This document shows positions 6,845-21,348 of a stretch of DNA of 22,323 nucleotides, one piece after another. The stretch spans positions 1 to 22,323 of IMG/VR virus record IMGVR_UViG_3300017714_000197; one strand, written 5' to 3'. Every line of letters starts with the position of its first letter. Position 1 is the first letter of the stretch. The DNA comes from a virus. The notes under the pieces were generated by a model that did not search any database, was not told the DNA's origin, and worked only from the letters and a program-made list of their open reading frames with translations. Made by a program: the position numbers and the translations under genes.

Positions 6845-9800
6845 CTATTTTGTTCTGCGATTGAAATAAGTAGAGGCCATATCGTTGAATTGTCCGGGTG
6901 TCATGGAACGATACATTAGCGTTCGTTCGGGTGTACCCTCTAGTTGACCTCGATGAGTCTCTTCTTCAGTTCTTTTCTTTTTCTTTGCCATGTTTGTAGC
7001 AGTTCCAAAGATGACATCTTTATAATTTTTACCATATCGACTTTTGAAATCTGCTGTCGCATCCTTTTTGAGATCCTCAGCGTACTTATCTCTCAGTTGC
7101 ATTTCTTTCTTTGTAAGAGTTGCCTCCGAGAGTTTTTCGGTTTTGATAAATGTCTTACCCGGATCAACAATGATTCCAAATTCTTTCATAAATGGTACGC
7201 CAACCAAAACTGGTGTACCTTTTTCTGACCGATCATCCAGAGTAAATCGACGGTTTGGATACTTTTTGCCCATAAATTCAATATCAAGTTCAATCATTGG
7301 ACGCTGTTCAACGTCATGTGCGATTGCACCTTGCAGCACAGTCAAGATATCGACAACTTTATTTGTGAATTTCTTGCCGCCATGGGTCCATGTCACCGTG
7401 TCCCCATCGATTTGATATTCATCTGCATGGATTGAGTTTACCACCATGTTTCCAGTGTCGAATTTACCGACCAAAGGTCCAATGCCCTCTACACTCATGG
7501 TTTCTCTTCTTCCGACTACGGTTGGTGAATACATCCAATTGTCCTTATCTAAGATGTGGTCGATAAAGTCTCCCACAATGTTCTGTTTTGTTGCCATCTC
7601 GATTCCCTCGGAACCGGGAGAGGAGTTTACCTCAATTATGTAAGGTTTCTTTGTTTTTGCAGAGACAGCAATATCAACACCGCAGTAATAGCAGCCAATT
7701 GTCTTTGCTGCTTTTAGTGCTAACTCTTCAATTTCTTTACTAATTGAAACTTTTTTGATCTTTGCACCCATTGAGAAGTTGCTTCTAAAGTCATTCTTGA
7801 CTTTTCCTCGATTCATCACACCAACAACCTCACCGTCAAGAACAATGATTCTCATATCACTCTTCATATCAATATATTCTTGAAGAATAATCTCTTCTGA
7901 TTCATCAATTTTCTGAATTGCATCAATAACAGACTTGAGAGATGGCTTACTATCAATAATAAAGACACCCTGACCCTTTGATCCTGTAAGTGTCTTCGCA
8001 ACAACAGGGAATTTCCCGCCAACTTGCTTATGAAGATCTTCGATCATTTCTGGATCAGTGACAAGTGCGGTTCGTGGGGTCGGCAGACCTACTTCCGTAA
8101 GCGTTACGGCAGTGCGATACTTGTCTGAACAGATTTCAATCGAATCTCTTGAGTTGATAACGAAGAATCCGTCTTTTTCGAAGGACGAAATCATGTCAAG
8201 GGTTCCACTCTGTGCAGATGCAGCACCACGGACAATCACAACGGTATCAAATCTATTTGCAATAAACTCTTTTCCGTCTTTGTTTACAACAGTTCGAGTT
8301 CCGTCTTCATTTTTGAAAGATCGTGCGAAAGGAACGAAGGCGACAAAGCAAGGAACGTTTCTTTTTTTACATTCCTCTTTGAGTCTTTTAGCGGTCTTCA
8401 TCAAATTGCTATCGTTCTCTTCGCTGTATCCAGAGAAAATCAAAACTTTGACTGGCTTGCTTGCCTTTCGTTCTTCGTTCATCTCTTTTGTTTTCTTTTT
8501 CATCTGTTCGATAAACTTACGATACACAGCAGCCTCCGCAGTTTTCTTCATCACCTTGGCTCGTTGCTCCATCGCAATCGCAGCCTGAATCTTGTGTGCG
8601 TGCGTTCGGTCAGACGACTTGATTTTACGAACCGATGCCTCAGCCGTTTCTACGTCCTTGAAACCAAGTCCGTGGATTGTGCCTTTTGGATCTTCATCGG
8701 TGTAGAGATCAGAATGAGTATCGGGGTCTTGGTTCTTGCGTGTTTTAGCAATGCGGTTTGCTTCCATAAACTCACGGAACATCGACATCGTGCGACCGAT
8801 TTCAGTTTGCTTGTCACCCGGCTTGCGACCCTTGATAATATTTTGAATGCCAGTCTTTTCAAGATTGCCATACAAGTCAGTCAGCACATCCCCATATCGT
8901 CCGAGTCTGTAATGTTGCAAACTAACATTCGTTTTGGGCTTCATCGTGAGCGGTGTTTCTTCGTCAATCAACTGCAAGACTTTTCGTAGTTCTTTATCAT
9001 TTCCCGAAGTGCTGTATTTTTTTGCTCCCGAAATCTCACCATATTCACCTTCTACAAAACGAACCCAGCCTTTTTCCATTGCCATAAAATCAACGAGGTT
9101 GTCAACATCTCGTATTCCCCGTTTGATTTCATTGAAGTGTCCATCTGCCGCCGATTCTGGGTCATTTCTGTTACTATACTTCTCCACCAAGCGTTCTTTG
9201 ATTTTCTTTTCAGTAAGACCAAAGAATCTTGGATCTTTCACAACCATCTGAATGTGATATGGAGTATGTCCCTGAATGATTCTTGTCTTTCCAGTTTTCG
9301 GATTCACCCAACCTTTGTAGCCCGGAATGTTGACTTCATCGAGTTCCACCTCTTCACGAACACCCATTGCCTTACGAAGATCATCAAAAAGTTTTCGTGC
9401 CTGTGCATCTGTTGCCTTCGACGGCACACCAGTCTTGAATGTTTCAAAATCTCCCTCTGTCGCAGCGGCTCTCATTTTTGACGCAGACATACCAGAAACA
9501 TCTTTTGCGTCTGGGTCGCGTCTACCGGCACTTACAACCTCAAATGAGTCGAGATCAAATGATTTATCTGGATCTGGGTGATTGACATAAGGACGAATCG
9601 TCTTATCGAATTCTTCTACACGATCACCACCGACAACAACAGTAATATTTTTGTAACCTTCGTCTGCCAAATATCCGATAGCATCAAATATTGTGCGGAT
9701 TGAAGGATTATACATAACATTGGCGTTCCTAAAGAACGTTTTCATATAATTTGTTTTAGTTTTTGAATCTAGAGGGTTCTTTCGTTTGTCTTTGCTGTGA

Positions 9801-9982
9801 CTCGCAAAGATAAAATTCGTAGAGCCTCTTTTTTTTGCCTCTTTCAGAACCTTGTTTACCAAAAGTTCATGACCGGAAGTGGGTGGGTTGAAGCGTCCAA
9901 AGGTAAGAACAGCACTTTTACCCTTCCGCTCTTCACGTAGTGATACATCATCATTCACGCCATCATTATAGAATGGTTCCAT
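6845..9982 (-). CDS. Four-part fusion: nucleotidyltransferase, phage helical region, RimK-like ATP-grasp ligase, RimB-like retropepsin
   Basis: 1045 residues; start fixed by GGAGG nine bases before ATG. Residues 23-190: cytidylyltransferase/NMNAT-like fold, with FNPPT35-S-G-H38 (HxGH type) and V-S-G-M-S-A-S-K-M-R171 matching the ISSTxxR motif. Residues 215-510: charged helical region including HAHKIQAAIAMEQRAK. Residues 512-815: RimK-type ATP-grasp, with VVAKTLTGSKGQGV, the LQEYIDMKSDMR stretch, GVDIAV and metal-binding E784-V-N786. Residues 824-948: RimB-like retropepsin (ATP-dependent Zn protease family), with GRRE, K-F-D842-T-G-N, S-I-H-A-D-E and PVLVGVPFMKEFGIIVD. The tail is basic (MAKKKKR). 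RimK adds glutamates to proteins and RimB removes or remodels such tails in bacteria. L15-R-E17-E18 is a possible prohead protease site, so the protein may be packaged and even processed (inference). Confidence 0.88.
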   Translation of the reverse strand: MEPFYNDGVNDDVSLREERKGKSAVLTFGRFNPPTSGHELLVNKVLKEAKKRGSTNFIFASHSKDKRKNPLDSKTKTNYMKTFFRNANVMYNPSIRTIFDAIGYLADEGYKNITVVVGGDRVEEFDKTIRPYVNHPDPDKSFDLDSFEVVSAGRRDPDAKDVSGMSASKMRAAATEGDFETFKTGVPSKATDAQARKLFDDLRKAMGVREEVELDEVNIPGYKGWVNPKTGKTRIIQGHTPYHIQMVVKDPRFFGLTEKKIKERLVEKYSNRNDPESAADGHFNEIKRGIRDVDNLVDFMAMEKGWVRFVEGEYGEISGAKKYSTSGNDKELRKVLQLIDEETPLTMKPKTNVSLQHYRLGRYGDVLTDLYGNLEKTGIQNIIKGRKPGDKQTEIGRTMSMFREFMEANRIAKTRKNQDPDTHSDLYTDEDPKGTIHGLGFKDVETAEASVRKIKSSDRTHAHKIQAAIAMEQRAKVMKKTAEAAVYRKFIEQMKKKTKEMNEERKASKPVKVLIFSGYSEENDSNLMKTAKRLKEECKKRNVPCFVAFVPFARSFKNEDGTRTVVNKDGKEFIANRFDTVVIVRGAASAQSGTLDMISSFEKDGFFVINSRDSIEICSDKYRTAVTLTEVGLPTPRTALVTDPEMIEDLHKQVGGKFPVVAKTLTGSKGQGVFIIDSKPSLKSVIDAIQKIDESEEIILQEYIDMKSDMRIIVLDGEVVGVMNRGKVKNDFRSNFSMGAKIKKVSISKEIEELALKAAKTIGCYYCGVDIAVSAKTKKPYIIEVNSSPGSEGIEMATKQNIVGDFIDHILDKDNWMYSPTVVGRRETMSVEGIGPLVGKFDTGNMVVNSIHADEYQIDGDTVTWTHGGKKFTNKVVDILTVLQGAIAHDVEQRPMIELDIEFMGKKYPNRRFTLDDRSEKGTPVLVGVPFMKEFGIIVDPGKTFIKTEKLSEATLTKKEMQLRDKYAEDLKKDATADFKSRYGKNYKDVIFGTATNMAKKKKRTEEETHRGQLEGTPERTLMYRSMTPGQFNDMASTYFNRRTK

Positions 9983-10228: not shown

Positions 10229-11428
10229 TTACTTTGTCCAGTCTTTTGATACGGTAAAGTTTGCTTTTGAGAATTCCATACGATCAACAAGTTTCACTGC
10301 TTTGCCCACATGGTCAATTGCAACAAAGCCTTCAGGGTCCGTGACCCTATATCCGTCATCAGTTTTTATAAATGACGGCATTGTATTTAGTGACTGAAGT
10401 TTCCGCAGCACGACTGTTTTTGCCTGTGCCAAGTAGTATTGTGCAGAAAATAAATCATTCATTCCTTTTGAGATCGAATCGATAAATCGGGTTACAGTAT
10501 TTCTTTCGGTTTCTAATTTTTTCTTTGCTGCATCGGTTTTGAGTTTTGCAATCCTCTGGTCAAACCGAGATGCAATAAACCCAGCCAACTCTTGGGCAGA
10601 GCCTCTGTCTTTTCCGACACGAACATTTGCATTTGTATAGATCTTTATCAAATCTTTCAGTGCCTTGTCTGATGTAATTTTATCAATCAGTCTTTTGTTT
10701 TTCGTTAGCACTCTTCGAACACCCGCCAAGTTTTTACGAATCTCTTCTGTTTCTTTTTTGGTAAATGTTGCACTACCGCTCACATCTTTATAATCAGCAT
10801 CATCAAAATACACATTCTTTGATTTTCGTAAGCCAGATACATCTGCACCAAAGTTTGCCTTGAGGTCTGCAATTGTTTTGCCCTCATAAGTCGTGTGAAA
10901 AATAATGCCCATCTTTGCCGCTGCGATTCGACTACCAAGTTTACTATCCACAGGAACCGCATACGTAATCGTGTTTGGTGTGAAAGAGTACATGGATTGA
11001 CCGTCAATCGTTTCGGTATTCACATCCTCCGAAGTAAACAACATATCACCCTGAATCACTCCAGTGATCCCAAGTTTTGAAAGATACTTCAATGCAACTT
11101 TTAGTTTTCCTGCAAGTCCCCCACCATGATTTGCGTCGATGTCTGCATCTGTATAATTGATCTTTGGTGTTTTATTGAAAAGAGACTTAGTGGCAACGAA
11201 AAATTTACCATTCTCTGGGTTGATCCCGGCAAAGACTGCTGGGGCCCCATCCCACTTGACAGTTACATTCATTTTTTTGTTTGAGTTACCTTGGAGCATA
11301 GTCACCAATGATTCAATAAAATTCATTGCCTCATTAGCCCCGGCAGAACCACGATTGAAAATCTCGTCCTCAAGATGTTCGAGGTGAAGATTTTTTTCTT
11401 CAACTAAAAAGTTGCTTAGAGTTTTCAT
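10229..11428 (-). CDS. KxDG-type covalent nucleotidyltransferase (RNA/DNA ligase-like), capsid-targeting-like N-terminus
   Basis: 399 residues. Ligase-superfamily motifs are in order: K58-W-D-G (motif I, adenylated lysine), GKFFVATKSLFNK at 74-86, GVIQGDMLF at 123-131 (motif III region), GIIFHTTYEG at 174-183 (motif IIIa region), E366-G-F-V (motif IV) and V-K379-L-V-D-R (motif V). A helical insert of about 165 residues separates motifs IIIa and IV. It resembles a protein family I recall from T4-like cyanophages (DUF6267). The N-terminus MKTLSNFLVEE has L8-V-E10 at the same position as I8-A-E10 of T4 internal proteins. It could seal RNA or DNA nicks, perhaps delivered with the genome; activity is inferred. 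Confidence 0.75.
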   Translation of the reverse strand: MKTLSNFLVEEKNLHLEHLEDEIFNRGSAGANEAMNFIESLVTMLQGNSNKKMNVTVKWDGAPAVFAGINPENGKFFVATKSLFNKTPKINYTDADIDANHGGGLAGKLKVALKYLSKLGITGVIQGDMLFTSEDVNTETIDGQSMYSFTPNTITYAVPVDSKLGSRIAAAKMGIIFHTTYEGKTIADLKANFGADVSGLRKSKNVYFDDADYKDVSGSATFTKKETEEIRKNLAGVRRVLTKNKRLIDKITSDKALKDLIKIYTNANVRVGKDRGSAQELAGFIASRFDQRIAKLKTDAAKKKLETERNTVTRFIDSISKGMNDLFSAQYYLAQAKTVVLRKLQSLNTMPSFIKTDDGYRVTDPEGFVAIDHVGKAVKLVDRMEFSKANFTVSKDWTK

Positions 11429-11431
11429 TGT

Positions 11432-12550
11432 TTATCCTCTGTACTGGTCAATGAAAGATACAATGTCTCTGCCAAGTTCGACAAGAAGACGGAACCTCAC
11501 GGTATAGCCTTCTCTTTTCTTGTCTGCATCATACCGGAAACGAATCGAAAACACAAGCATGTTGTTTGCGTATAGACCGATTGTCGGGTTTCCTGTTGGC
11601 ATAACTTTCCATTCAACGTCGCCTGTTTTTGAAGTTTCCAAAAGCCCTCGTGAAAGTGCCTCAAAAGTTTTTTTATCGAATGAAAAACCACTCTTGATAA
11701 TTTCAAGATCTTCTTCTCGTCCTCTTGCTGCAACCAACAAACCATTGGTAAGTGCCTTGATATTATTTTCTTTATTGAGCCAGTTTCCACCATACTTCTT
11801 TGAGATCTTTGTAAACACTGGACTCACCGCAGAAAAGATAATTTGCTTATCCTTTGCAATAATTGGATCTGTTCTACTTTGATATACACCAACAATATTG
11901 GCGACTGCCTTTTTCAAATCACCAAGCATACTATTGACATCCATGCCAAACGACTTGAATCCAAGTTGCATGTTCTTGACTGCATCGGAACCAGCAAACT
12001 GACCGACCTGCTTGACACCACCGTACTTGACGGAGAAACCAGCCTTTCGATTTTCTCGACCATTTACAAAAACATCTACATCAGATTTTGTTTTCATCTG
12101 TCCTGACGTTCCACCACAGACAACATCGACCACATCAGGCTTTCCGTTTGTGATGACATCATCAGACAGTTTTTTCAGTGTGCCGTTTTTGTTCACTGCT
12201 TCGATTGCAGTGGTCACAAGAGTTTGTACTTCTTTGGTTCGACGGACTGATGGATTGCTCAATGCCGACAATACTTCTGGAGGAAGACCAGTTCCGTCAA
12301 ATTCAATGACATCAAGACCGTCACCCTCTTCGACTTCCCACGCACGATAGCCACCAAAATATTTCAACATAACATCCTCAACCGCATCTCTTGTTAGTGG
12401 TTGGGGTGTTCCGTCATCAAACCGATCAGTAAATCTGGCAACCATTGCTGCGGCGAGAACAAACTCGTAGGCATGACCTAGATTGAAAGTTACCTCTTCA
12501 TTTAGATAGTTTCTGAAATTTTCGAATGGTAGGTCAATAGGTTCTTTCAT
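11432..12550 (-). CDS. Phage protein with PD-(D/E)XK-like pattern and capsid-targeting-like N-terminus
   Basis: 372 residues, no firm family. The N-terminus carries NFRNYL16-N-E18-E, a basic-aromatic leader with a prohead-protease-like site. Residues 24-40 (LGHAYEFVLAAAMVARF) look like the first helix of a restriction-endonuclease fold with Glu29. Residues 156-176 contain S-D-V-D-V-F-V, then 11 residues later F-S-V-K175, compatible with a D...(S/E)xK active site, followed by KQVGQFAG. Similar proteins appear beside the KxDG protein in marine T4-like phages as far as I recall. It starts with GGAG nine bases upstream, inside the end of the phosphatase gene, with a 17-base overlap. Nuclease activity is only a suggestion. 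Confidence 0.7.
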   Translation of the reverse strand: MKEPIDLPFENFRNYLNEEVTFNLGHAYEFVLAAAMVARFTDRFDDGTPQPLTRDAVEDVMLKYFGGYRAWEVEEGDGLDVIEFDGTGLPPEVLSALSNPSVRRTKEVQTLVTTAIEAVNKNGTLKKLSDDVITNGKPDVVDVVCGGTSGQMKTKSDVDVFVNGRENRKAGFSVKYGGVKQVGQFAGSDAVKNMQLGFKSFGMDVNSMLGDLKKAVANIVGVYQSRTDPIIAKDKQIIFSAVSPVFTKISKKYGGNWLNKENNIKALTNGLLVAARGREEDLEIIKSGFSFDKKTFEALSRGLLETSKTGDVEWKVMPTGNPTIGLYANNMLVFSIRFRYDADKKREGYTVRFRLLVELGRDIVSFIDQYRG

Positions 12551-13232
12551 TTATAATGTCTCCAAAGTTTAGTGTAATAGATTCGGTGAGGGTTGGCAAT
12601 TTTGTTTTATCTAGTTTAGTATACAATTCATCGCCAAGTATCCTACCTGCTTCGATGTCACTAGGGAAATGAACCCCCAGAGCAATTCTAGATTCTGAAT
12701 TTTTATTTGCAATATGATTGAATCGTGAAGATTTTTCTGGATAGTAATTGGACATTACTCGTGCAATCAAATGACCGACTGCGGTATGGTTGCTTGGATA
12801 TCCCGGTGTATCAACTTCAATATGTGGTGTGAATTTGATACCATGATATTTTGCAATTTCTTTTGGTCGGGGTCGATTGTATGAATACTTCATGTTCAAT
12901 GTCACAACGTCGGTGTCTTGCTTGATGAGATCGACAAGATCAATAATCTCAGTTCTGGCTTCAACTTCCTTCAATTCAGTTTTGAACATTTTCAAATAGT
13001 CTTTATCAATTTCTTTATACGCAGCCAAAATCTCGTTACGAAGAATTACTGCGTCCACCACTTCCATGAGTTCCATTTTCAATTCCATAGAAGATGGTTT
13101 CTCTGGTTTCAAAAGTTCAATATCTTTATAGCCTTTGAAAATACTCACAGGTCTTCGCATAATCAACAATTGCACTTGCGAGGGTTTTGCCAGCAGTGGC
13201 TCATTGTTCATATAATTCTTGAAATCAATCAT
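12534..13232 (-). CDS. PAP2-superfamily phosphatase (acid phosphatase/haloperoxidase fold)
   Basis: 232 residues. The three catalytic motifs of the family are intact: K115-Y-S-Y-N-R120-P (KxxxxRP), Y-P146-S-N-H149-T (PSxH) and S181-R-x3-G-V-H188-F-P-S-D192 (SRxxxxxHxxxD). A charged helical region (45-110) precedes the domain. There is no signal peptide and no transmembrane helix, unlike bacterial class A acid phosphatases (secreted) and lipid phosphatases (membrane). Instead it opens MIDFKNYMNNE, the same kind of leader as its capsid-targeting-like neighbours, though the N-N-E site departs from the consensus. The substrate (phosphate monoester, lipid phosphate or nucleotide) cannot be told from sequence. 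The start is coupled to the upstream stop (ATGA). Confidence 0.85.
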   Translation of the reverse strand: MIDFKNYMNNEPLLAKPSQVQLLIMRRPVSIFKGYKDIELLKPEKPSSMELKMELMEVVDAVILRNEILAAYKEIDKDYLKMFKTELKEVEARTEIIDLVDLIKQDTDVVTLNMKYSYNRPRPKEIAKYHGIKFTPHIEVDTPGYPSNHTAVGHLIARVMSNYYPEKSSRFNHIANKNSESRIALGVHFPSDIEAGRILGDELYTKLDKTKLPTLTESITLNFGDIINERTY

Positions 13233-13918
13233 CGTAGAAATTCCTCAACAAGTTTCATATTCACCAGTACCCGAGTCCCCAGATCATGCCCTACAACGGG
13301 TGTCTCGCTCGTCAGAGAGGGAGTAACGCCTAAAGTGGCAAGGTAGTCTCCGAACATCCCCTGATCGTCAGAATCGATTCTACCGCCCTCAAACAGAGGA
13401 TAAAAGTTTCCAATCAGATCCACCATACGGTCCCCCAGATCGTCTGTATCGCTCCACACGAAAACATAGCCCTCCCCCCTCCAAGGGTCTTCCTGAAGGT
13501 CTAGGAAGCCTTCTGAGGCGAGTGGGAGCCAGTAGTCTCGCAGGTCCAGAAGAGCCGCCATTTCTCGGGACGGATCATGCGGAATATCGTGGTTGGGGTT
13601 TCGATTTGCGTCATCTTCATGTTTGCCTGATCTAAAAGTTTCTTTTGACATAATCGGAAGATACGAAACATTTACATTCTTTGGTTTATTATTTTTTACA
13701 TATTCGAGAAGACCAAACCAGCCAGCAGGTTCGTCACCCTGAAATGCAGAGGCGATCATCTTGTTCGGAAGATTTTTATTTTTGTTGAGCGGAACAAAAA
13801 AAGTATGACCATTTTTATCAACTCTTGCATGTGTCGTTTGCACAGCATCTTCAAAATCTTGAAGGTACTTTTCGACCGCATCAACTTCTTCGAAAAGATA
13901 AGATTTGAAATTCCGCAT
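13229..13918 (-). CDS. Unknown acidic protein with capsid-targeting-like N-terminus
   Basis: 229 residues, not recognised. I chose MRNFKSYLFEE because L8-F-E10-E aligns with the leaders of the neighbouring genes. The frame is open 60 bases further, but that extension lies inside the PEP-CTERM-like gene. No Shine-Dalgarno sequence precedes this ATG, and a CTAAATA box ends five bases before it, so translation may be leaderless or reinitiate after the upstream stop. Notable segments are AGWFGLLEYVKNN, a His/Asp/Pro-rich PNHDIPHDPSREMAALLDL, and an acidic middle (WSDTDDLGDRMVDLI). Confidence 0.65.
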   Translation of the reverse strand: MRNFKSYLFEEVDAVEKYLQDFEDAVQTTHARVDKNGHTFFVPLNKNKNLPNKMIASAFQGDEPAGWFGLLEYVKNNKPKNVNVSYLPIMSKETFRSGKHEDDANRNPNHDIPHDPSREMAALLDLRDYWLPLASEGFLDLQEDPWRGEGYVFVWSDTDDLGDRMVDLIGNFYPLFEGGRIDSDDQGMFGDYLATLGVTPSLTSETPVVGHDLGTRVLVNMKLVEEFLR

Positions 13919-13922
13919 ACTG

Positions 13923-13929
13923 TATTTAG
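13923..13929 (-). promoter_or_regulatory. CTAAATA box overlapping the PEP-CTERM-like gene's stop
   Basis: Reads ACTAAATAC on the minus strand. The TAA inside the box is the stop codon of the PEP-CTERM-like gene. A transcript from it would begin almost at the next ATG, so it is either a leaderless late promoter or chance. Confidence 0.3.
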
Positions 13930-14564
13930 TAGCGTCTTCTTCTACCACCCATGAGAATGCCCAAACCACCCAAGGCAACGGACGCAGGAGCAGGAACGGG
14001 AACCGTTTCTAAGTCCGGCATCAACGATTCAAATATCGTAGCAGTTCCATCACCTTGAAGAACTCCGGGGGACGTAGTATATTCGTCTGCCCAAGCGAGA
14101 ATCCAAACCGTTGCTGTCTCTCCGGGGGCTAAAGAACTCGTAGTTGTATCGTCCGAAAAGCCCCAGTCCCATGAGAACAGACCTGTCTCGTAACCAAAAT
14201 TTACATAGTCCGGGGCATTGTAAAAAGGATCTATTTGTTCTTGAATGGGTGTTTCTATAAAGTATCCCGGCATCACAAGAGAAGCGATTTCGGATGTGCT
14301 TTCCCCAACGTAGATGTCGAGGTCTTCGATGTTCAGCATTGACTCCCAACTGTTTTCAACAGTGATTGTCACCAGCATCGCACCTTCGGGAAGACCTACG
14401 ACATCTTGTTGTTCGGGTTCGGTATAAACTGCGGAGGAAACAGTGGCAGAGAAGAATCCATCTTCATCCTGCGACCAAACTTCGTACTCCATAAACGCTG
14501 TCGGATCACCGGCAATATCGCCAAATGCAGCCGTAGTAATAAGTAACGCTAATGGTCTAATCAT
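13926..14564 (-). CDS. Secreted protein with PEP-CTERM-like sorting tail
   Basis: 212 residues. It has a short signal peptide (MIRPLALLITTAAFG), a beta-rich acidic body (SAVYTEPE, LVTITVEN, DLDIYVGE, ETATVWILAW), and a C-terminus reading V-P-x-P191-A-P193, then ASVALGGLGILMGG, then RRRRY. This PAP/hydrophobic/poly-Arg layout is the variant of PEP-CTERM seen in many Phycisphaerae. In bacteria such tails are recognised by an exosortase; no exosortase is in the window, so the host enzyme would be needed. AAGGG precedes the ATG and a CTAAATA box lies 46 bases upstream. It is probably a surface-exposed late product of host origin. Confidence 0.78.
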   Translation of the reverse strand: MIRPLALLITTAAFGDIAGDPTAFMEYEVWSQDEDGFFSATVSSAVYTEPEQQDVVGLPEGAMLVTITVENSWESMLNIEDLDIYVGESTSEIASLVMPGYFIETPIQEQIDPFYNAPDYVNFGYETGLFSWDWGFSDDTTTSSLAPGETATVWILAWADEYTTSPGVLQGDGTATIFESLMPDLETVPVPAPASVALGGLGILMGGRRRRY

Positions 14565-14610
14565 ACAGAAACCCTTTTTGTAAAAGTTGTCCGAAGTATT
14601 CGAACAGATT

Positions 14611-14617
14611 TATTTAG
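14611..14617 (-). promoter_or_regulatory. Late-promoter-like box CTAAATA before the PEP-CTERM-like gene
   Basis: Reads CCTAAATAAA on the minus strand; its TAA is the stop codon of the 278-residue dockerin-like gene. The ATG of the PEP-CTERM-like gene is 46 bases away, with its own ribosome binding site. Confidence 0.5.
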
Positions 14618-15450
14618 GAATTTGAATTTCCCCAAGCCGCAAGAATTTTCAGAATTGCATCGAACACATCGTCATATCTTTCTGCGTCATTCAGAACCAT
14701 CAGTAAGTCTCCAAAATCAACTCTGTCGTCGTAGTTCAAGTCTTCCCAGATTGTGGACTGGGTAGCATCTCCGAAGTAACCGATGGTTTCGTAATAATTC
14801 CAGTGTGGCAAACCGTCATACTTGTTCAGGTTTACACCACCCTTGAATCTTACATTTCCCTTTGTGGTAAGTTGCATAAAAGGATTCTCACCGATCTTTG
14901 CATTTTGAGCATTTGAATTTACGACAACAATAAGTCTTGACAATGTAAAAATATCATTGTTTTCACCCAAGATCAGATTGTTGGTTTGGTTCAGTCGGTA
15001 TGGAGTTGCAACACCGGCACAGGGGTAGTTGTCACCAAGACCGGGAACACCGACACAATCGGGAAGTTCACCCATTGGAAAGTGTGAATCAAAATCCTGT
15101 CGTGGATCTTGTCCCAAGAAGTAGCGAAGCGGACCCGATGGTGTTTGCTCTGCGGTGGACCAAGTGTCTCCCCACGGAACATCGCTCGGGTGATTGTTCC
15201 AGAATCCTTCCTCGGAAGTTGTCACAAGAATAAACGGTGTTTGAGTTGCGATTCTCGCACCGAGTCCAGAGTAACCAGCATTCAGTGGCAAAATACAAGT
15301 CGGTGTTTCCGCATCAATAAAGAAACGATATGTGTTTCCGTATGGAGTCATACGACCCATATTTTGAATACGAAGTCCGGTGGTACAATCCTCACCCGGA
15401 TCATTGTCATCACCAAGAGCAATAGCAGCAGATAAAATCAAATCAATCAT
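14614..15450 (-). CDS. Secreted dockerin-like protein B
   Basis: 278 residues. A very short leader (MIDLILSAAIALG) ends before DDNDPGED. After it comes M-G-R-M-T-P-Y-G-N-T-Y, shared with the upstream paralogue. The C-terminus (about 236-274) has E-D-L-N-Y-D-D-R-V-D-F-G-D-L-L, a calcium-binding dockerin/EF-hand-like loop, then a second helix ending LKILAAWGN. That is the planctomycete-style dockerin layout, with the terminal cysteine missing. A cysteine-containing body suggests export to an oxidising compartment. GGGGA lies seven bases before ATG, and the start overlaps the end of the upstream paralogue by eight bases. Its binding partner (a cohesin) is not in the window. Confidence 0.75.
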   Translation of the reverse strand: MIDLILSAAIALGDDNDPGEDCTTGLRIQNMGRMTPYGNTYRFFIDAETPTCILPLNAGYSGLGARIATQTPFILVTTSEEGFWNNHPSDVPWGDTWSTAEQTPSGPLRYFLGQDPRQDFDSHFPMGELPDCVGVPGLGDNYPCAGVATPYRLNQTNNLILGENNDIFTLSRLIVVVNSNAQNAKIGENPFMQLTTKGNVRFKGGVNLNKYDGLPHWNYYETIGYFGDATQSTIWEDLNYDDRVDFGDLLMVLNDAERYDDVFDAILKILAAWGNSNS

Positions 15451-16537
15451 TACAATTTCCCCATTCAGATAAAACTTTCAATACGGCAGAGAAGCCGTTA
15501 TTTGTTTGTGGATGATACTTACTCGCAGCAACATCCCCTAAAACTTGCAACAAATCTTGAAATCCAACTGTGCCATCTTCGTTGAGATCAGATGGGCAAG
15601 AATTGTCAGCATAGTAGTCTACAAAGTATGGGGCACGGTCGCAAGGATAACCTTGATTACACGCAAAACGAATCACTCCACCACTTCCGAAGTAGTCAGG
15701 ACCAGTAAATCGTGCAATGTGATATGAACCGGGATGCTTTTCGCTCGACCAGTCTACATCAGTGCCACGCCACATAATCAAATCACCGTAATCATTCTGA
15801 CCGGGAGAAGAGCAACAGACTTGCCCAACAATGGTGTCAAGAGGTGTCCAGAACTTGATTACTCTATTGAGTGAATAGTGTGGTGTTATGAGATCGGCGT
15901 GTTGTTGCTGTACTTGTGGGTATTTGGGAGTACCGAACGCACCATACTTCTTACCGGGTTCTCCGTGAAGAATCCAAGAGTCACACCAGAAGTATTCTAG
16001 ATTCGTCAGATCAAATGTGTTCGGAATACCACCGGGTGCATCCCAATTGACTGGGGTATAGTTCTGTCCAAGATACATCCAGCGTTGGTAGGGATTGGAC
16101 TGAATGCAATCCCAATACGTGCCGGGAATGTCGCAGGACACAACCGTTCCATCGTCTTGCTCCCAAGTTTCAAACGTGGTGTATCCCTGCCAATATTCAA
16201 TACATTCGGGACAATTCTCAAGGAATGGGTAAGTGGCATCGTTGCGGTTCTTGAAAACATCCCCTTCAATATTCCACGCAAACGCACGAGTAGGAATCTC
16301 GCTTCCACGAGTAGACCCAATCATATACGGGGGACGGGAACTACCATCAGGCTGGGAGAACTCGGGGTCAAACCCTGTCTGAATGTAAACGTCGAACGTC
16401 CGACCAAACGGAGTGAGTCTACCAAGATCGTCAATCCACATTTCAACCGTGTCGGGATTGGTTGGTTTGCCGCCGTTATCACCAGCAAAACTAAAAGAAG
16501 AAAGTGCGAAAACTACAAGAGTACAAAAATGCTTCAT
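15443..16537 (-). CDS. Secreted dockerin-like protein A
   Basis: 364 residues. I take MKHFCTLVVFALSSFSFA as start and signal peptide because GGAGG is eight bases upstream; the earlier in-frame ATG overlaps that site. The body is rich in Trp, Tyr and Cys (about ten Cys), with L-G-R-L-T-P-F-G-R-T-F near residue 38, shared with the downstream paralogue. C314-P-S-D-L-N-E-D-G-T-V-G-F-Q-D-L-L is a dockerin type I-like calcium loop, and the protein ends L-K-V-L-S-E-W-G-N-C, as planctomycete dockerins do. It has a late-type box 19 bases upstream and is first in the dockerin/PEP-CTERM operon. It could be a virion surface or exported host-interaction protein; catalytic motifs are absent. Confidence 0.8.
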   Translation of the reverse strand: MKHFCTLVVFALSSFSFAGDNGGKPTNPDTVEMWIDDLGRLTPFGRTFDVYIQTGFDPEFSQPDGSSRPPYMIGSTRGSEIPTRAFAWNIEGDVFKNRNDATYPFLENCPECIEYWQGYTTFETWEQDDGTVVSCDIPGTYWDCIQSNPYQRWMYLGQNYTPVNWDAPGGIPNTFDLTNLEYFWCDSWILHGEPGKKYGAFGTPKYPQVQQQHADLITPHYSLNRVIKFWTPLDTIVGQVCCSSPGQNDYGDLIMWRGTDVDWSSEKHPGSYHIARFTGPDYFGSGGVIRFACNQGYPCDRAPYFVDYYADNSCPSDLNEDGTVGFQDLLQVLGDVAASKYHPQTNNGFSAVLKVLSEWGNCND

Positions 16538-16556
16538 TACAAAGACCTCCATAATT

Positions 16557-16630: not shown

Positions 16631-17026
16631 TTATTGAATTTGGATTTCCTTTGGTTTCTTTTCTTCAGGTACAATCTTGTGAACATTTACAGAAAGAATT
16701 CCGTCTTCACAATATGCTCCCGTGACGTTCCAATCCTCGGTGAGAGGAAGTCGCGTGCGGAACTTTCGGCGAGCGATTCCTCGATGCTCGAACATCTTCT
16801 CTTCCGTAGATTCACGATCAGAAGCAACTTCCAAAACCTTGTAATTCTGAGGGTGGGGGATAACAGTAATTGATAAATCATTTTTCTTATATCCTGCCAG
16901 TGCAAACTCAATGGTTGCGTTTTCTTCGTCGTGACGAATAATGTTGTATGACGGGAAATTCATATTCTTTTCTAATCCCCGTTCAATTTCAGTAATATGA
17001 TCCCAAAAATTTTCAATACTCAGCAT
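16631..17026 (-). CDS. Small heat-shock protein (Hsp20/IbpA-like)
   Basis: 131 residues, typical length for the family. It holds unfolded proteins in an ATP-independent way. Seen: FPSYNIIRHDEENATIEFAL opening the alpha-crystallin domain, then AGYKKNDLSITV, F-E-H-R-G-I-A-R-R-K-F-R-T-R-L-P-L, and GILSVNVHKIVPEEKKPKEIQI with the C-terminal I-x-I motif (I-Q-I). AAGGAG precedes the ATG. A CTAAATA box is 58 bases upstream and a strong terminator follows, so it may be its own transcript. Hsp20 genes are widespread in T4-like marine phages, presumably aiding capsid or tail folding. Confidence 0.92.
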   Translation of the reverse strand: MLSIENFWDHITEIERGLEKNMNFPSYNIIRHDEENATIEFALAGYKKNDLSITVIPHPQNYKVLEVASDRESTEEKMFEHRGIARRKFRTRLPLTEDWNVTGAYCEDGILSVNVHKIVPEEKKPKEIQIQ

Positions 17027-21033: not shown

Positions 21034-21348
21034 TTACTTTGCAGCGACTTTTGAGAAGACTCCCAAAACCGATGTTGCCTTCATGAGCATGTAATCGCCC
21101 AAAGGAACATATGCTTCTTCCATAAAATAAATTTTACATCCGGGCTTGATTCTTGCATTTTCTTTTGTAAAAACTTCATCATCACCAACGGCAATGACGG
21201 TTCCGGTTTGACGGTTTTGTTCTTTGGCAAACCAGATCCCAGCGTCGGTCTTCTCCTCGCCAGTATCGCGTTTCAACAAAATGCGATCACCCGTGGGTTG
21301 AAGCATTGCATAATCTTCTGCGGTAATATCAATTTTCTTTGGTGGCAT
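21034..21348 (-). CDS. groES: GroES-like co-chaperonin
   Basis: 104 residues. L-Q-P-T-G-D-R-I-L-L-K-R opens the GroES domain. The mobile-loop region E-E-K-T-D-A-G-I-W-F corresponds to E-x-K-S-A-G-G-I-V-L of GroES, with I-W-F replacing the I-V-L tripeptide that touches GroEL. T-G-T-V-I-A-V-G-D-D and I-K-P-G-C-K-I-Y-F complete the barrel. It would cap host GroEL to fold phage proteins, as gp31 does in T4. AAGGA is nine bases before ATG, and it overlaps the upstream gene by 20 bases. Confidence 0.88.
   Translation of the reverse strand: MPPKKIDITAEDYAMLQPTGDRILLKRDTGEEKTDAGIWFAKEQNRQTGTVIAVGDDEVFTKENARIKPGCKIYFMEEAYVPLGDYMLMKATSVLGVFSKVAAK

Follow-up and report, generated by a model that had tools for sequence, protein, structure and literature searches.

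What could a virus gain from one protein that carries a nucleotidyltransferase, a RimK-like ligase and a RimB-like protease? The question is raised by an open reading frame (ORF) of IMG/VR virus record IMGVR_UViG_3300017714_000197, of which the 22,323 bases analysed, a fragment (22 kb), are called the window here. The ORF lies on the minus strand and runs from an ATG at 9982 to 6845, encoding a single chain of 1045 amino acids (aa), as an earlier note on this DNA had stated with correct coordinates; the opposite (plus) strand is full of stops at 6845-9982 and no ORF is open across it. From the N- to the C-terminus, the chain, hereafter the fusion, consists of a NadD/NMNAT-like domain, two modules named B and C, a RimK ATP-grasp, a RimB-type retropepsin and, at the end, a basic tail (Table 1).

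Three enzyme domains in one chain

Of 217 stretches matched in viral contigs, 206 were confirmed, and the best 80, representing 79 distinct loci, were used. These include five different fusion ORFs that are complete, all in IMG/VR contigs, namely that of the window (with a 100% identical copy in L002) and those of L003 (1162 aa from stop to stop), L004 (915 aa), L007 (764 aa) and L008 (847 aa), together with partial copies in L005 and L006. RimK and RimB remain joined in every complete copy. Five distinct complete versions in independent metagenome contigs rule out a fusion created by chance or by assembly, and, judged by sequence, all three enzyme domains are far beyond chance.

The RimK part matches the Pfam family RimK (PF08443) above its cut-off over residues 619-810 (E = 7.2e-45), and RimK was also the top match of phmmer against the PDB. 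An AlphaFold model of residues 505-971 (RimK-RimB), built from 38 aligned sequences, has a mean predicted local distance difference test score (pLDDT) of 83.8 and fits solved RimKs with Z 29.5-30.5 and a root-mean-square deviation (rmsd) of 2.8-3.1 over 287-289 residues; for RimK bound to RpsF (5zk6), Z is 29.8 and rmsd 3.1 over 287 residues. LysX/ArgX tie with RimK in the fold match (3vpb, Z 30.7), so that the substrate cannot be told from the fold alone. Residues K621, K663, R711, D770, E784 and N786 are invariant in 38/38 aligned RimK-RimB relatives, and E702 is a glutamate in 32 of the 38. The roles of such residues at the ATP and metal sites are assigned as in the literature on E. coli RimK.

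The RimB part reaches 30.8 bits with Pfam Zn_protease (PF05618, the RimB family; cut-off 27) at residues 869-949, and a profile of 17 phage-type domains retrieved three solved bacterial proteins of retropepsin-like type at E < 0.001, namely 9g59 (E = 8.8e-14), 9g58 and 2pma. The closest solved relatives by profile, 9G58 and 9G59, are RloA retropepsins of Pseudomonas aeruginosa, in which K46, R92, R114 and R137 are reported to contact polyglutamate, all except R92 being conserved in RimB; unlike the phage fusion, RloA is described as secreted, encoded by a separate gene and active in osmotic stress (PMC12239564). By our own mapping, based on alignment spacing (offset 20 in 9g58), the counterparts of K46, R114 and R137 in the fusion are K840, R894 and R918, which are invariant in the 38 relatives, as is D842-T843-G844, so that RloA shares with the fusion both the DTG and basic contact residues. 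In the wider set of 17 domains, the phage YerA41 member has L in place of the lysine, and both arginines are kept. Given this conservation of polyglutamate-contact residues, the RimB domain of the fusion is predicted to cleave polyglutamate. The domain was folded only within RimK-RimB, and the listed structure matches cover mainly model residues 3-314; RimB is absent from that list because the ATP-grasp fills it, which is no argument against a RimB fold. The earlier note had placed a RimK ATP-grasp and a RimB-type retropepsin with Asp842 in the same chain, and both assignments are borne out: the ATP-grasp model is clear, Asp842 is the DTG aspartate, and neither it nor the ATP-site residues are lost in the relatives.

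The first domain carries TSGH at residue 35 and SASKMR at residue 166, which we take to be the [T/H]xGH and SxSxxR-type motifs of nucleotidyltransferases. Two PHROGs labelled 'cytidyltransferase', 3041 and 395, match residues 16-212 (2.1e-56) and 20-212 (5.6e-48), and Pfam CTP_transf_like scores 20.1 bits, slightly below its cut-off of 21. [T/H]xGH is present in 47/47 distinct nucleotidyltransferase segments, which were chosen by GRF[NQ]PP, a pattern that overlaps this motif, and the SxSxxR-type motif in 44 of them. A model of residues 1-512 is confident over about residues 20-210, and its top Foldseek matches are NadD (best 8aih, E = 8.7e-6, TM by target 0.60). What the earlier note had called a cytidylyltransferase-type domain is thus a nucleotidyltransferase with the two motifs that it named, with a fold closest to NadD/NMNAT; a cytidylyltransferase proper was rejected, as the fold search favours the NadD type (nicotinate/nicotinamide nucleotide adenylyltransferase). 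'Cytidylyltransferase' is a family label, and on the model an adenylyltransferase of nicotinamide or nicotinate mononucleotide (NMN/NaMN) is the better guess.

Order of RimK and RimB and known relatives

A RimK-RimB alignment scan of phage contigs confirmed at least 391 of 599 stretches, and 80 of these were used. Duplicates included, the phage contigs gave 77 ORFs with RimK followed by RimB only and nine rows (five distinct) that also have the nucleotidyltransferase; the stand-alone RimK-RimB gene, in K-then-B order, is common in marine phage contigs. These proteins of about 460-475 aa lack the adenylyltransferase and the B, C and tail modules of the fusion, and most have a T4-like leader. 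The same order is seen in Mosig_00005 (39% identity to the fusion over 455 residues), YerA41_066 (34% over 428) and many IMG/VR copies. In phage Mosig, a putative ribosomal protein S21 is encoded at most 6 kb from the RimK-RimB gene (L081, 2611-2820 and 8016-9401).

The earlier note described RimK and RimB as separate enzymes in bacteria; a hybrid of the two has a precedent in a bacterial RimBK with an N-terminal RimB, published in 2025 (PMC11957791). Its representative DP2392 of Desulfotalea psychrophila likewise has its retropepsin (RimB type) and its ligase (RimK type) on a single polypeptide (PMC11957791), whereas the fusion has RimK first, behind the adenylyltransferase and extra modules. 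Pseudomonas RimABK (RimK 7qyr, 7qys; RimB) comprises the same two enzyme families with conserved catalytic residues, but as separate chromosomal genes with no virion link, and the phage fusion is without RimA. Across 142 Alphaproteobacteria genomes, PF05618 was found in 22, at 23 places: 13 are separate rimB then rimK genes, four are RimB-RimK fusions, and the remaining six have no rimK of their own within 1.5 kb on either side, so that B precedes K at 17/17 places with both. A FastTree phylogeny of 61 RimK domains separated bacterial from phage-type sequences with support 1.0, placing the alphaproteobacterial RimBK hybrids in a group apart from that of the phage enzymes; the bacterial set is small (Alphaproteobacteria and one Saccharibacterium, without DP2392), and L193 was dropped for its overlap with L206. 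Acquisition of a bacterial RimBK from a host is not favoured, given the opposite order and the separate tree groups. The reversed order suggests that the RimK-RimB partnership has been joined covalently more than once.

Four relatives were found in genome contigs, all from metagenome-assembled genomes (MAGs). L174, in which a RimK-RimB gene is followed by a nucleotidyltransferase gene and which sits on a long odd branch of the tree, looks phage-derived, as does L175; L177 has rimB and rimK as a conventional gene pair, and the fourth, L176, described with the leaders below, is ambiguous. A cellular source of K-then-B genes thus finds no clear support in these four.

RimK, RimB, the bacterial RimB-RimK hybrid and packaged cyanophage NMNATs are known already. 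What is new, within the literature searched, is a phage RimK-RimB fusion in reversed order, with T4-like leaders and with an adenylyltransferase joined to it in addition: among the publications listed on RimK, S6-modifying and ATP-grasp enzymes in phages and virions and on cyanophage capsid targeting, none reported a phage RimK-RimB fusion or its packaging. Work by Iyer et al. in 2009 on amidoligases may already cover links between RimK and proteases.

Leaders, virion detection and possible packaging

In T4, a ten-residue leader directs proteins to the head, and gp21 cleaves after L/I-X-E (PMC9026906); IPII/IPIII start with MKTYQEFIAEA. Among the stand-alone RimK-RimB ORFs, 73 have a complete 5' end, amounting to 50 distinct N-termini, and 40 of these carry the strict leader M..[FYW]..[FYL][ILVM].E (shuffle mean 0.65, maximum 4 in 500 shuffles), such as MKAPKFREFISEA and MQVQPFKNYLEEA. 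In four of the ten others the leader is there too, with V (GTG) instead of M in front of it, and the core motif has no occurrence in the 29,730 residues downstream of the N-termini. Within the same loci, the motif is present in 108 of the 1898 other ORFs with 100 aa or more, most of which are not genes, and the leader is found on neighbours including the ORF at 13229 and many DUF6267 orthologues. In L115 and L154, DUF6267, RimK-RimB and the nucleotidyltransferase are three adjacent separate genes in that order, the last starting with MNKTYQQFLKE or MSKSYQQFLKE. In L176, a Clostridia MAG, a RimK-RimB-like ORF with an extra domain lies beside three ORFs starting with KFSEFI(T/A)EGMWGSAL, by their letters the same leader type in another setting.

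Homologues of both halves of the fusion have been detected in virions. In YerA41, mass spectrometry (MS) detected 63 of 201 proteins in particles, and 'g112 Ribosomal protein modification protein' is asterisked as found in the virion (PMC7354516); we equate g112 with YerA41_066 on the strength of its place after ribonucleotide reductase and of its label in GenBank, 'structural protein'. The NMNAT of S-SCSM1 (ORF91; PMC9602691) and the cytidylyltransferase of S-CREM2 (ORF154; PMC10665884) were likewise reported from virions; they are homologous to the first domain of the fusion (39 and 34% identity), are not fused to RimK or RimB and carry the T4-like leaders MKSFLQFLKEA and MKNFSSFLTEA, respectively. 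The link to virion delivery drawn in the earlier note thus finds support in leaders of stand-alone relatives and in virion MS of homologues.

On balance, we lean towards the fusion being a multi-enzyme cargo of a T4-related marine phage, packed in the head and injected, that resets glutamate tails on host protein and supplies NAD. The RimK part would use ATP to attach glutamate, or an amino acid like it, to the end of a protein; the RimB part, an aspartic protease in need of a second copy to complete its active site, would cut polyglutamate and may also boost RimK by analogy with Pseudomonas, where RimB not only shortens S6 tails but also stimulates RimK (PMC11957791), so that a covalent RimK-RimB pair could regulate itself. 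The first domain would adenylylate a nicotinamide- or nicotinate-type mononucleotide. The cargo set of DUF6267, RimK-RimB and the adenylyltransferase, most stand-alone members of which start with capsid-targeting leaders, would be packaged into heads and reach the cell together with the DNA, and in the window lineage neighbouring cargo genes would have merged into one chain. At the onset of infection, glutamate tailing would be reset on a host protein, with the S6 C-terminus as the first candidate, and NAD would be supplied. A more specific version, in which marine T4-related phages inject a head-borne writer and eraser of polyglutamate acting from the outset of infection on a host protein, probably S6, to which the window lineage adds an NMNAT-like enzyme, perhaps separated by the prohead protease, is offered tentatively, as possible rather than probable. 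T4 IPI-IPIII and Alt would share only the proposed route (leader, prohead packaging, injection), the mature proteins being unrelated. SAR11 cells infected by other pelagiphages are reported to be devoid of detectable ribosomes (PMC11066056), from which no conclusion is drawn here.

Several observations weigh against this cargo proposal. The aromatic capsid-targeting pattern is absent from the fusion start in 5/5 complete versions, four of which have L/I-x-E there and L008 V-x-E; the capsid-targeting start proposed in the earlier note is therefore non-canonical in the window fusion, which does not match the T4 internal-protein pattern and has only [LIV]xE near residue 17, and it is the stand-alone relatives that bear T4-like leaders. 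YerA41's RimK-RimB is itself without the strict motif. As a general mark of virion proteins the leader found no support in S-SCSM1, where it occurs on 1/45 virion-labelled vs 5/222 other ORFs; three further virion-labelled genes, either truncated by the end of a stretch or lying on the minus strand, are not among the 45. Eleven IMG/VR records (one of them 189 kb long), which may be fragments, gave no match to the gp21 or gp23 family; both a gp21-type protease and a gp23-type capsid are encoded in all three isolates examined (Mosig, YerA41 and Melnitz). With 63 of 201 YerA41 proteins seen, carry-over into particles is possible. As to the target, D. psychrophila RimBK cut polyglutamate but did not glutamylate the S6 used in the published assay (PMC11957791), so that a target other than S6 is quite possible.

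Such points would suit an unpackaged, ordinary intracellular auxiliary enzyme that modifies host or phage proteins, the fusion merely co-expressing neighbouring genes. Beyond the absent strict pattern and the failure of the leader to predict virion detection across S-SCSM1, this explanation can call on the caveat of the S-CREM2 authors, who cannot exclude carry-over, that abundant cell proteins can show in virion MS (PMC10665884), and on the listing of YerA41 g112 as a middle, not a late, gene (PMC7354516). It has to contend with the leader on 40 of the 50 N-termini and with the virion detection of homologues of both halves, and we regard it as somewhat unlikely. That the cargo enzymes are packed as one chain, a head polyprotein cut at its joints by the prohead protease at L/I-X-E, appears less likely still. 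L/I-x-E lies ahead of RimK in 4/5 fusions (shuffle 1.5), ahead of the tail in 4/6 (3.1) and ahead of module B in 5/6 (2.4), and the stretches MFREFMEA in the window and FSNFLES in L004 look like leader remnants before module C. These joint samples are small and related, acidic linkers raise the chance rate of L/I-x-E, the gp21-type protease was not found in the 11 records mentioned, and the motif precedes internal module C in 12/32 cases vs 7.5 expected and internal nucleotidyltransferases in 4/9 vs 3.6; cleavage-type sites at the joints are weakly, not clearly, enriched.

Quite unlikely, in our estimate, is that the protein serves mainly to supply NAD against NAD-depleting defences, RimK-RimB having a small molecule or peptide as its substrate instead of S6. 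The first domain is indeed most NadD-like and recurs in cyanophage virions, restoration of NAD by phages is reported as a counter-defence, and the listed fold matches of the ATP-grasp include ligases for small molecules and peptides, such as LysX/ArgX and glutathione synthetase. RimK-RimB is nevertheless commoner without the nucleotidyltransferase (77 ORFs against nine), and the retained basic contact residues point to polyglutamate chemistry. T4 Alt, once injected, can act on the RNA polymerase of the host and modify it without delay (PMC9026906). If the phage RimK-RimB is packaged as we propose, it would be a translational counterpart of Alt, the phage delivering an adder of glutamate tails together with a protease that removes them, and would provide a testable context for RimK, whose role in phages is so far guesswork. 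The combination of leader and family also gives a sequence rule for finding further injected enzymes in marine phages.

Variable modules and neighbouring genes

Modules B and C are variable, neither being present in L007 and L008 and L004 lacking B. In the model, module B has pLDDT mostly of 60-90 at 223-310 and below 50 after 312, and it gave no informative fold match among the 50 matches listed. Module C (HSDLYTDEDPKGTIHGLGFKD...), helical and of ~100 residues, is scattered singly or within many different marine phage proteins; in the fusion, it matched no Pfam family.

Table 1. Positions in the window of the fusion, its parts and neighbouring genes
Feature	Position	Strand	Basis or remark
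Complete fusion ORF, 1045 aa	6845..9982	-	Recurs in L002, L003, L004, L007, L008
N-terminal leader, residues 1-21, degenerate, with L-R-E	9920..9982	-	Strict T4-like pattern absent
NadD/NMNAT-like nucleotidyltransferase domain, residues 16-213	9344..9937	-	Profiles, fold match, motifs
Variable module B, residues 214-400	8783..9343	-	Absent from L004, L007, L008
Mobile helical module C, residues 401-504	8471..8782	-	Also free-standing or within other phage proteins
RimK-like ATP-grasp ligase, residues 505-812	7547..8470	-	Pfam, phmmer, fold, conserved residues
Metal-binding E-V-N, residues 784-786	7625..7633	-	E784, N786 invariant 38/38
RimB-type retropepsin-like domain, residues 822-955	7118..7519	-	Pfam, phage profile vs solved structures
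Codon of catalytic Asp842 in K-F-D-T-G	7457..7459	-	D in 38/38 relatives
Basic C-terminal tail module, residues 956-1045	6848..7117	-	Recurs in other phage proteins
DUF6267 gene adjoining the fusion	10229..11428	-	Several orthologues start with T4-like leaders
Neighbour with leader FRNYLNEE	11432..12550	-	Leader
Neighbour with leader MRNFKSYLFEE	13229..13978	-	Likely start inside listed ORF; leader in 4/4 copies listed

The neighbourhood of the fusion is kept in L003, L004, L007 and L008, with DUF6267 before it and orthologues of ORFs 5903, 5395, 5007, 4399 and 3951 after it. The DUF6267 protein contains K-W-D-G, presumably a form of the ligase/capping motif KxDG, and has a weak match to RNA ligase (E = 0.017); against solved structures nothing convincing was found (best E = 0.018), and PHROG 455 combines DUF6267 and the nucleotidyltransferase domain in one profile. 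DUF6267 may be an undescribed nucleic-acid ligase-like enzyme travelling with NMNAT and RimK-RimB.

Elsewhere in the window, genes for a PAP2 phosphatase (12534-13232), an Hsp20 (16631-17026) and a GroES-like protein (21034-21348) lie on the minus strand, and a possible outer-membrane porin-like protein, recognised by eye and matching neither Pfam nor PHROG, is encoded at 1011-1874 on the plus strand. Three secreted-looking proteins are encoded at 13926-16552 on the minus strand, one of them with a weak C-terminal match to PEP-CTERM (PF07589) that falls below the cut-off and two containing dockerin-like repeats (DLNEDG/DLNYDD). Such repeats are known from Planctomycetes, and the host may be a planctomycete.

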